Source: Synechococcus sp. Nb3U1
Lineage (GTDB): Bacteria > Cyanobacteriota > Cyanobacteriia > Thermostichales > Thermostichaceae
Assembly: GCF_021533835.1 (NCBI RefSeq)
Contig: NZ_JAKFYQ010000001.1
Location: 1,460,079 to 1,524,078, forward strand
Direction of reading: 5' to 3'
Length of the DNA stretch: 64,000 nt
Each line of letters opens with the position of its first letter. The stretch's first letter is position 1. Positions 42,439 through 59,001 of this stretch are shown here, piece after piece. The notes below the pieces were generated by a model that saw only the letters and a program-made list of their open reading frames with translations, searched no databases and was not told where the DNA came from. The position numbers were made by a program, and so were the translations under genes.

Positions 42439-43848
42439 ATGAACGCTACAACTACACACCCTTCAGGCTATCCCTGGTGGGCGGGTAATGCTCGATTCGT
42501 TGACCTCTCCAATACTTTTATCGTGGCGCATGTGGCCCAAGCGGCCCTGATCATGGCCTGGGCGGGCGGCTTTACCTTGTTCGAAGTGGCCAAGTTTTCG
42601 CCCGATTTGCCGATGTACGAGCAGGGATTAATTTTGTTACCCCATCTGGCCACATTGGGATGGGGAGTTGGTGCTGCGGGCCAAATTGTCGATACGTTCC
42701 CCTTCGTTGCCATTGGTTGTATTCATCTCGTAGCGGCTGGGGTGCTGGCTGGGGGAGCTTACTTTCACCAGACCAAGCTGCCTCCCAACTTAGGTATGGA
42801 GTTTGGCAAAGCTGCCAAGTTTCACTTTGCTTGGGATGACGCCAAAACATTGGGGATGATTTTGGGACATCACCTGTTGATCTTGGGTTTAGGAGCCTTA
42901 TTGTTAGTGGCCAAGGCCATGTTTTTGGGTGGGCTGTACGATGCCACGCTCGATCAGGTGCGGCTGGTGAGCCAACCCACGCTCAATTTTGCCACCCTTT
43001 TCGACTATCGCACCCATCTTTTTGATGTCAATAACCTAGAAGACTTAGTCGGCGGACATCTCTACGTTGCCGGCCTTCTGCTTTTAGGGGGTGCATGGCA
43101 CATCCTCGTTCCACCTTTTGCGTGGGTCAAAGCCCGTTTTCTCTTCTCAGCAGACGGGATCCTCTCCTATTCTCTGTTTGGTATTGCCCTAGCCGGATTT
43201 GCGGCCTCCTACTACTGTGGGTTTAATAGTCTGGCCTATCCAGAGGTCTTTTATGGGCCAACATTGCAGCTCAAGTCCGCCTTCACGCCATTCTATTTTG
43301 ATCCCACCCAAATGGAGCCGTGGGCCTATTCATCCCGAGTGTGGCTGGCCAACGCGCATTTCTATCTAGCTTTCTTTTTCCTACAGGGATCCCTGTGGCA
43401 TTTTCAGCGGGCCATGGGCTTTGACTGGGCAAAGCTTTTTCAAGCCTGGCAACGGGGTTGGCAGGAAGCGGGGTTATCTCAGTTTGTTTATCAAACTGTG
43501 GTGGAGATCCATCCCCAGGCCACACCTGAGGTTTGCTACGAGCCAGCCTTTGCAACTCCAGCTCCTCTGGCTCCTCAGAGGGATCAAAACTACACCTACC
43601 AGCCCCCCCAGAGAAACTCTAGTTTGATTACACCTATTACACTGAATGGTGTGCAAAACACTCTTTATCAATTTGCCTATCATCCCAAATCCAGCCTGTT
43701 TTATGAGGTGCCGAGTACTTCTTCTCCCTTCAACAAAACACCGCTGCAGGTGGGATATGGATCCCCAAAAGCCCAAATCAATCACGGAGGACGTTCCCAC
43801 TCTCTATCTACCACCATTTACGAATTGAGTAGGGCTCAGGTAAATTAG
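42439..43848 (+). CDS. isiX: CP43-like chlorophyll-binding antenna protein with C-terminal extension (IsiX/Pcb family)
   Basis: 469 residues. The first 340 are a six-helix IsiA/Pcb/CP43-like antenna: RFVDLSNTFIVAHVAQAALI, LFEVAKFSPDLPMYEQGLIL, LPHLATLGWGVGAAGQIVDT, HFAWDDAKTLGMILGHHLLI and WLANAHFYLAFFFLQGSLWH, with the many His ligands for chlorophyll and no large lumenal loop E, which excludes true CP43. About 125 further residues (from TVVEIHPQATPEVCYEPAFA) are hydrophilic, rich in Pro, Ser, Thr and Tyr, and absent from IsiA. The third gene of the apcD4-apcB3-isiX set. Confidence 0.88.
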   Translation: MNATTTHPSGYPWWAGNARFVDLSNTFIVAHVAQAALIMAWAGGFTLFEVAKFSPDLPMYEQGLILLPHLATLGWGVGAAGQIVDTFPFVAIGCIHLVAAGVLAGGAYFHQTKLPPNLGMEFGKAAKFHFAWDDAKTLGMILGHHLLILGLGALLLVAKAMFLGGLYDATLDQVRLVSQPTLNFATLFDYRTHLFDVNNLEDLVGGHLYVAGLLLLGGAWHILVPPFAWVKARFLFSADGILSYSLFGIALAGFAASYYCGFNSLAYPEVFYGPTLQLKSAFTPFYFDPTQMEPWAYSSRVWLANAHFYLAFFFLQGSLWHFQRAMGFDWAKLFQAWQRGWQEAGLSQFVYQTVVEIHPQATPEVCYEPAFATPAPLAPQRDQNYTYQPPQRNSSLITPITLNGVQNTLYQFAYHPKSSLFYEVPSTSSPFNKTPLQVGYGSPKAQINHGGRSHSLSTTIYELSRAQVN

Positions 43849-56870: not shown

Positions 56871-56966
56871 ATGATGTATTTTGCCGCCCCGATTTCTTCC
56901 ACACAGTTGCAAAGCCAAACCCTGTTGGTTCTGCTGCTGGGGCTGCGACTGCGCCTTGGGCGCTAA
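56871..56966 (+). CDS. Leucine-rich leader peptide upstream of leuA
   Basis: A 31-codon open frame starts at ATG 56871 and ends at TAA 56964. Its second half is TLLVLLLGLRLRLGR: nine leucine codons in all, eight of them within twelve codons (56922-56957). It lies 295 bp before leuA, on the same strand, in a 550-bp gap that otherwise has no gene. This is the pattern of an attenuator leader peptide (as for E. coli leuL). No clear Shine-Dalgarno precedes it, which weakens the case. Confidence 0.5.
   Translation: MMYFAAPISSTQLQSQTLLVLLLGLRLRLGR
56951..56963 (+). promoter_or_regulatory. GC-rich hairpin over the end of the leader frame
   Basis: GCGCC (56951-56955), TTG, GGCGC (56959-56963), then TAATATTCTTTAT. 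A five-pair all-GC stem followed by an AT-rich tract overlaps the last codons of the leucine-rich frame. Further on, TGCCT/AGGCA (57016-57036) and GGGC/GCCC (57037-57046) could pair in mutually exclusive ways. An attenuation switch is possible but not shown. Confidence 0.3.
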
Positions 56967-57261
56967 TATTCTTTATCCCTCCAACCCTACTGCCTTGGCT
57001 GCTCATCCCTGAGTTGCCTGGTTTCTCTAATAGGCAGGGCTTGCCCCTGGCTATCTAGCTTGCGCTATTCCGGCCTGTTTCTGCTGTCTGAAGATTATTT
57101 TTGGTTGACAGATTTTGGTTTAACAACGCCAATCGTTCTGATCAACGATCTCTGCTTAACACTGCCAATCCATCCAACTCAATTCCTTCCATTGCTCTGT
57201 AATCAGGGCTTGTTTTTGCTGCTCACCCATTTCATCAGTTCAATCTTTTGAGGTGTTAGCT

Positions 57262-59001
57262 ATGGTTATGCTTGCGGATCCCAATGTCAAATATCGTCCT
57301 TTTTCACCGATTCACTTGCCAGATCGCACCTGGCCCAATCGGGTGATCTGCAAACCCCCCATTTGGATGAGTACCGATCTGCGGGATGGGAACCAGGCTT
57401 TGGTGGAGCCTATGAATGGGATCCGTAAACTGCGCATGTTTGAGTTACTGGTGCAGATCGGGTTTAAACAGATCGAAGTGGCGTTTCCGGCGGCTTCCCA
57501 AACAGATTTTGACTTTGTGCGTACCCTCATCGAAGAGGATCGGATCCCAGAGGATGTCACCATCGAGGTGCTCACCCCAGCGCGTGAAGATCTCATTCGA
57601 CGCACCTTAGAATCTTTGCGAGGCGTGAAGCGAGCCACTGTTCATCTTTACAATGCCACTGCACCGGAGTTTCGCCGCGTGGTGTTTGGGTTAAATCGGC
57701 AGGGCACCATCGACTTGGCGGTGCGAGGGGTACACCTCATCCAAGAATTGACGGCCCAACAACCCGAAACCGAGTGGTTTTTAGAGTATTCTCCGGAAGC
57801 TTTCACAGGTACAGAATTGGACTTTGCCAAGGCCATTTGTGATGCTGTTACCGATACTTGGCAGCCGACACCCGAGCATCAATTAATCCTCAACTTGCCC
57901 GCTACGGTTGAGCTGGCCACCCCCAATGTGTATGCTGACCAGATCGAGTGGATGGGCCGCTACCTAAACCATCGAGAGTGCATTGTGTTGAGCGTGCATC
58001 CTCACAACGACCGAGGGACAGGGATCGCTGCTGCGGAGTTGGCCTTGATGGCGGGGGCAGAACGGGTGGAAGGCTGCTTGTTTGGCCATGGAGAACGCAC
58101 AGGCAATGTGGATTTGGTGACGTTGGCATTGAATCTGTACAGCCAAGGGATCCATCCCGGTCTTGACCTGTCGGATTTGGATGAGATTCGCCGCTGTGTG
58201 GAGGAATGTACCCAATTACCCGTTGGGCCACGCCACCCCTATGCTGGGGATTTGGTGTTCACAGCTTTTTCGGGATCCCATCAGGATGCGATTAAGAAAG
58301 GCTTTGCAGCCCAAGAGCCTCAGGGTCTCTGGCAAGTCCCCTACCTACCTTTGGATCCGGCGGACGTCGGTCGTAGCTACGATGCGGTGATTCGGGTGAA
58401 CAGCCAGTCGGGCAAGGGGGGGGTGGCTTTTTTGCTGGAACGAGCTGAGGGCCTCAAGTTGCCGCGTCGGTTACAAATTGAGTTCAGCCAACGGGTACAA
58501 CAGGTAACCGATGCCACGGGCCGAGAACTTTCGGCTGCGCAAATTGCCGCTTTGTTTCACCAGATTTACCTGGAAAGACAGGATCCCTTTACCTATCTTG
58601 GCCATCAGATTCGTACTCAGCTTGAGATGCCCCAGGCTCTAGGTCACAAGGATCCCCAACAGGTGGAGGTACAGGTGATGGTGCGGCAAGTGGGAGAGCT
58701 ACGCCAGTTTTTGGGGAGAGGCAATGGCCCTATCGACGCTTTGGTGAACGGGATCAACGCCGGAATCCCAGACTCCATCCAGGTGATCGACTACCAAGAG
58801 CATGCCATCGGTACCGGGGCAGATAGTCGAGCCGCCGCCTATATTCAACTGCGTTGGCCGGATGGATCCCTGCGATATGGGGTAGGAATAGATGCCAATA
58901 TTGTCGCGGCTTCTTTTAAGGCGATCTTCTCGGGGTTGAACCAAGCCTACGGCCCAGAGCAGACGGCTGATCCTAAGACTCGATCCCTGGTGCTGGCTTG
59001 A
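57262..59001 (+). CDS. leuA: 2-isopropylmalate synthase, long (type 2) form
   Basis: 579 residues from the ATG at 57262, preceded by GAGG. HMGL-like TIM barrel: [80 protein letters not shown]; then a C-terminal LeuA regulatory domain ([20 protein letters not shown]). The layout matches the actinobacterial/proteobacterial type-2 enzyme rather than the type-1 LeuA usual in cyanobacteria. It makes 2-isopropylmalate, the first step to leucine, and is probably inhibited by leucine through the C-terminal domain. Confidence 0.92.

Follow-up and report, generated by a model that had tools for sequence, protein, structure and literature searches.

The window analysed here, a 64,000-nt stretch of the genome of Synechococcus sp. 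Nb3U1, contains leuA2, a gene for a type-2 2-isopropylmalate synthase (57262..59001; this and all following features lie on the + strand unless noted). The ATG at 57262 stands behind GAGG, with a GTG at 57253 and an ATG at 57268 as other possible starts, and the assignment to the type-2 form, already proposed in the preliminary description, is borne out by profile matches to TIGR00970 (771 bits; cut-off 697) and NF002991 (855 bits). The same genome holds full-length but distant matches to LeuA2 (about 25% identical), of which G000:C1:2179915-2181435 matches a canonical LeuA in extent, and leuA2 is therefore probably an additional copy beside canonical leuA. Upstream lies a leader open reading frame of 31 codons (56871..56966) that reads MMYFAAPISSTQLQSQTLLVLLLGLRLRLGR before its stop codon, the end of which is 295 nt from the leuA2 ATG. 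Leucine occupies eight of the twelve codons 18-29 (56922..56957), in agreement with the earlier claim of a 31-codon frame with eight leucines within twelve codons, 295 bp before leuA. This is the sole ORF of 15-60 codons with at least seven Leu in 12 on either strand of the window; dinucleotide shuffles yield 0.017 such ORFs per window at a threshold of at least eight and 0.55 at a threshold of at least seven. A scan of the leader stretch for promoter-like sites returned none that passed. Elsewhere in the window, the minus strand carries IsrR (42832-43009; Rfam RF01419, 99 bits), the known antisense RNA of isiA.

The coding sequence of the leader is itself the seat of the predicted RNA structure. 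An outer helix, P0, pairs CAGTTGCA (56904..56911) with TGCGACTG (56944..56951), the latter within codons 25-27, and encloses an inner hairpin AGCCAA-ACCCTG-TTGGTT (56913..56930). The last codons of the ORF form a further hairpin, P2 (GCGCC-TTG-GGCGC; 56951..56963), followed by the stop codon and an AT-rich tail, TAATATTCTTTATC (56964..56977), a segment that elsewhere often reads AACTAATTTTTT or AAATAATTTTTT. The preliminary description had placed a GC-only hairpin 3' of the leader frame; this was mistaken, because the hairpin sits in codons 27-31, immediately 5' of the stop. The tail of P2 in the window, TAATATTCTT, is T-poor, and in other genomes the tail is variable; in most genomes, a U-tract begins 5-6 nt past the P2 stem, and that of the window is weak. 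A terminator-like scan of the leader stretch gave two sites, with 0.8 expected by chance: P2 and a second hairpin, GCTCTG-TAAT-CAGGGC (57194-57209), which is followed by TTGTTTTT (the whole at 57194..57217) and lies 44 nt 5' of the leuA2 ATG. The stability of the predicted fold is modest (z -1.8 in the window, -0.8 in the related genome G005 and -1.5 in a third fold). Fold energy was accordingly set aside as support, and the case for the leader rests on conservation.

Within the genus, leuA2 was found in Synechococcus sp. Nb3U1 and G005 only, among six genomes searched. The upstream match that spans the leader is 82% identical in G005, where the leader reads MLNLAAPIFSTQLQSQGLLVLLLGLRLRLWR before its stop and retains the leucine cluster, including one synonymous change from CTG to TTA. 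The stem of the inner hairpin is the same in both genomes, a replacement of Gly by Trp is confined to the P2 loop, with the stem unaltered, and the second terminator-like hairpin keeps its stem with an altered loop. The G005 leuA2 (L037 3401-4513 on G005:C3; L206) looks decayed, as it lacks about 40 residues and is short at its C-terminus, although its leader is well conserved; in G256, too, a leader precedes a broken leuA2.

Across 390 cyanobacterial genomes, leuA2 is present in 64, distributed over 27 of 160 genera, and nearly all of these 64 that have enough upstream sequence carry Leu-rich leader ORFs 140-750 nt 5' of the gene, typically ending in LLLGLGLLLRLGR followed by N or K, or in near variants. 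The leader of Chlorogloeopsis fritschii PCC 6912 (L112), for example, ends in LLLGLGLLLRLGRK, and G027 has no Leu-rich leader ORF upstream of its leuA2. At least seven Leu in 12 codons occur in 40 of 57 leuA2 upstream regions, whereas among shuffles the count is 1 of 285, and among control regions, which precede LeuA1-like or related genes, it is 1 of 24. The preliminary description had called for a search for the leader frame and its leucine codons in related strains; both are kept in G005 and recur before almost every leuA2 of the cyanobacteria, and the lack of leucine-codon conservation between relatives that it had named as counting against its proposal did not occur. Among 48 distinct leaders, in which leucine is kept through several synonymous codons, positions -2, -1 and 0 encode Leu in 44, 45 and 48, respectively. 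At position -6, 40 of the 48 have Leu, with CTA, CTG, CTT and TTG all in use and Ile absent among the residues listed there, which argues that leucine itself is kept, not hydrophobicity.

The helices are conserved along with the codons. P0 is formed by CAGCAGCA with TGCTGCTG in many genomes, by CAGTTGCA with TGCGACTG in the genus of Synechococcus sp. Nb3U1 and by AGTCGC with GCGACT in G192. Counted over 24 sequences, three P0 pairs have changed on both sides in a compensatory manner, and the covariation score of P0 was matched by none of 500 shuffles and by no slid version of the pairing. Support for P0, P1 and P2 jointly is weaker, the covariation score of 14 sequences being reached by 27 of 500 shuffles, and all such counts can be inflated by the relatedness of the sequences. 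The inner hairpin P1 lies closer to the 3' arm of P0 in other genomes than in the genus of Synechococcus sp. Nb3U1, and the homology of the window's inner hairpin to P1 is uncertain. P2 occurs as GCGCC/GGCGC, TGCGC/GCGCA and TGCCC/GGGCA, the last of which represents a G-C to C-G exchange, and its stem is kept though the encoded residues vary through RLGR, RLAR, RLTH, PVGH, PVGQ, RGRA and RLAH. In G241, a stop codon falls inside the P2 loop and the stem is retained. In the genus g82, a further conserved region lies 3' of P2 (GGCGAAATGCC, then ACTCCCC...GGGGAGT), where CCCCAG may pair with the Leu-codon region.

An RNA model comprised of P0, P1, P2 and the associated sequence (R1) was searched in the 390 cyanobacterial genomes. 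Fifty-five matches reach an E of about 1e-6 or better, and 53 of them adjoin leuA2, two of these decayed, where adjoining means a position on the same contig near a protein match or one demonstrated by downstream reading; the latter revealed a decayed leuA2 in G256 and a leuA2 N-terminus in G091. In G260 and G284, the match and leuA2 lie on different contigs of fragmented assemblies. Weak matches away from leuA (e.g. G267, G196 and G070) have no leuA nearby and were dismissed as noise, and among the weaker matches examined only that in G063 precedes leuA2. The model was trained on 14 sequences that include the window and G005, so the scores of these 14, among them that of the window (E 3.1e-18, with the inner hairpin placed differently in its genus), are circular; those of matches outside the training set are not.

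A second leader-like element, consisting of a Leu-rich ORF that ends across the leuA start together with a hairpin GGGTTGTCAG/CTGACARCCC, often with a T-rich tail, was recovered by pattern search in about 25 of 57 cyanobacterial genomes and is also seen in several proteobacterial upstream regions and in L102, L137 and L147. It may be a second attenuator in tandem with the leader. Neither this ORF nor its hairpin was found in the window or in G005.

Outside the cyanobacteria, the leader is found as well. The nearest LeuA2 proteins there come from proteobacteria, mostly Burkholderiales, and R1 matches the regions upstream of leuA2 in Methylobacillus, Alkanindiges and two metagenome-assembled genomes. 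Among 100 genomes from the order of Methylobacillus, the best R1 matches stand before leuA2 in L219, L224, L225, L226 and L232, and before canonical, type 1 leuA in L223, L227, L228, L229 and L231, the latter assigned by reading of the protein. As the leader in betaproteobacteria thus precedes two distant isozymes of one step, there is good sequence evidence that it tracks leucine synthesis and its control rather than a single gene family. A tree of LeuA2 places the main clade of cyanobacteria within Proteobacteria, as sister to a proteobacterial metagenome-assembled genome. The LeuA2 of the window groups instead with Burkholderiales (SH-aLRT 95), but the test does not reject a single clade for all cyanobacteria (p-AU 0.49), such that leuA2 may have reached the genus of Synechococcus sp. 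Nb3U1 either by a separate import or by one shared with the main clade. The proteobacterial R1 matches and the tree lend support to the earlier suggestion that gene and leader were gained together, and leuA2 and its leader were probably imported jointly from proteobacteria, the direction being our inference because the root of the tree was not inferred by the program.

In the leu, ilv and trp leaders, stalling of the ribosome at cognate codons alters the downstream fold. Three features of such attenuators are found here as well: a short ORF upstream of a leucine biosynthetic gene in the window, a run of cognate leucine codons conserved in relatives, and conserved RNA hairpins that overlap these codons. 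The reading preferred here, at a probability of roughly 0.77, is that the leader encodes a leucine-sensing peptide of the amino-acid attenuation kind, in which the position of the stalled ribosome would set the folding of P0/P1 and P2 and hence the expression of leuA2. The leader ORF would be transcribed and translated; when charged Leu-tRNA is scarce, the ribosome would pause in the leucine-codon cluster, and its position would decide whether P0/P1 and P2 form, with the likely outcome that low leucine raises leuA2 expression. Judged by position and assuming the usual ribosome footprint, a stall at codons 25-29 would cover the 5' arm of P2, whereas a stall at codons 18-22 would break P0 and leave P2 free. 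As to the output, transcription may terminate at P2, unless a ribosome on the last leucine codons covers its 5' arm; it may terminate at the distal hairpin (57194-57209) instead; or the effect on leuA2 may be translational. A simple model with P2 as terminator fits poorly, because an early stall that leaves P2 free would terminate rather than antiterminate.

The preliminary description had spoken of ribosome-mediated attenuation, with a hairpin, an AT-rich tail and alternative pairings. A Leu-codon leader tied to leuA2 has stood up in G005, in its recurrence among cyanobacteria and in the betaproteobacteria. The classical form has fared less well, and neither folding nor alignments gave an antiterminator pairing common to several genomes. 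A classical transcription attenuator, in which P2 or the 57194-57209 hairpin is an intrinsic terminator, P0 a pausing or anti-antiterminator helix, and stalling leads to read-through, would be a narrower form of the preferred reading and falls somewhat short of an even chance. It draws on the passage of both hairpins through the terminator-like scan, on the occurrence of the hairpin plus TAATTTTTT in many other leaders, and on an outer helix that includes leucine codons, comparable to the Shewanella leuA model (PMC2659441). Set against this are the distance of the U-tract from the stem and its weakness in the window, the location of P2 within the ORF, the missing conserved antiterminator, and the number of terminator-like sites that chance alone would supply.

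Control might alternatively be exerted on translation or mRNA stability, with occupancy of the leader altering the fold or lifetime of the transcript and shifting leuA2 translation without termination, much as has been discussed for the actinobacterial LEU element. The second Leu-rich ORF and hairpin across the leuA start in many cyanobacteria and some proteobacteria would suit such control, and in Streptomyces the leader of leuA departs from classical attenuator behaviour (PMC1262725); the window, however, is without the second element, its leader lies 295 nt from the leuA start, and no pairing was seen between its leucine codons and the ribosome binding site of leuA, which together make this account rather unlikely. 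That the ORF instead encodes a functional small hydrophobic peptide, such as a membrane peptide, is very improbable: the leader peptide is hydrophobic and conserved, but it is leucine that is kept rather than hydrophobicity, the N-terminal parts diverge, the peptide end varies freely over a constant hairpin, and strong R1 matches occur only beside leuA genes. A chance ORF beside a chance hairpin, to which only the modest fold z-scores would lend colour, is refuted by the dozens of genomes in which the leader recurs at one and the same gene, when set against shuffles and control genes, and its probability is negligible. Conservation of the ORF, its leucine codons, P0 and P2, and of the link to leuA2 or leuA1, speaks for the leucine-sensing leader.

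A 2016 paper from a group cataloguing attenuators notes that reliable data on attenuation are lacking for cyanobacteria (PMC4833913), and no cyanobacterial leucine leader was found in the open-access literature searched; the proteobacterial leaders may be described in subscription papers, including the same group's 2010 survey. It is tentatively proposed, with slightly less than even confidence, that the leader represents a new RNA family, a nested-helix Leu-codon leader within its own ORF, often with another Leu-rich ORF and a hairpin located at the start of leuA, which entered cyanobacteria with leuA2 from proteobacteria, would be the first well-supported leader-peptide attenuator of that phylum, and may act by direct ribosome cover of P2 in place of antiterminator switching. 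The leader provides cyanobacteria with a conserved attenuation candidate that goes with leuA2, a gene present in 27 of 160 genera, and R1 serves as a ready-made RNA model for it. It would likewise help to test whether cyanobacteria couple transcription to translation tightly enough to be regulated in this way, and it is a probable case of a regulatory leader that moved together with a metabolic gene on import.

Among known systems, Rfam 15 gave no gathering-threshold match to the leader for Leu_leader or any other family, and none relevant in the stretch up to E 5. Leu_leader, the attenuator of the enterobacterial leu operon (leuL), shares with the window a short Leu-rich ORF before leuA and hairpins that overlap the leucine codons; the window differs in that both conserved helices lie in the ORF, in its phylum and type-2 leuA, and in that a terminator/antiterminator switch is not established. 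The Shewanella leuA attenuator similarly has a helix built from part of the sequence that codes for the leader peptide, with a hairpin after it, but has a described terminator/antiterminator pair where none is established in the window (PMC2659441). The LEU element before actinobacterial leuA (Seliverstov et al. 2005; PMC1262725) also joins a Leu-codon leader to conserved RNA structure, but there the base of a pseudoknot is formed by pairing between the leucine codons and the Shine-Dalgarno sequence of leuA, whereas the leucine codons of the window are predicted to pair within a leader that ends 295 nt before the ATG and whose CUG codons lack complementarity to GAGGUG. The betaproteobacterial leuA1/leuA2 leaders share the R1 model, the LLLRLAR/LGR ending and the position before leuA, and they precede canonical leuA as well, while the strong cyanobacterial matches, in the genomes searched, stand at leuA2 only.
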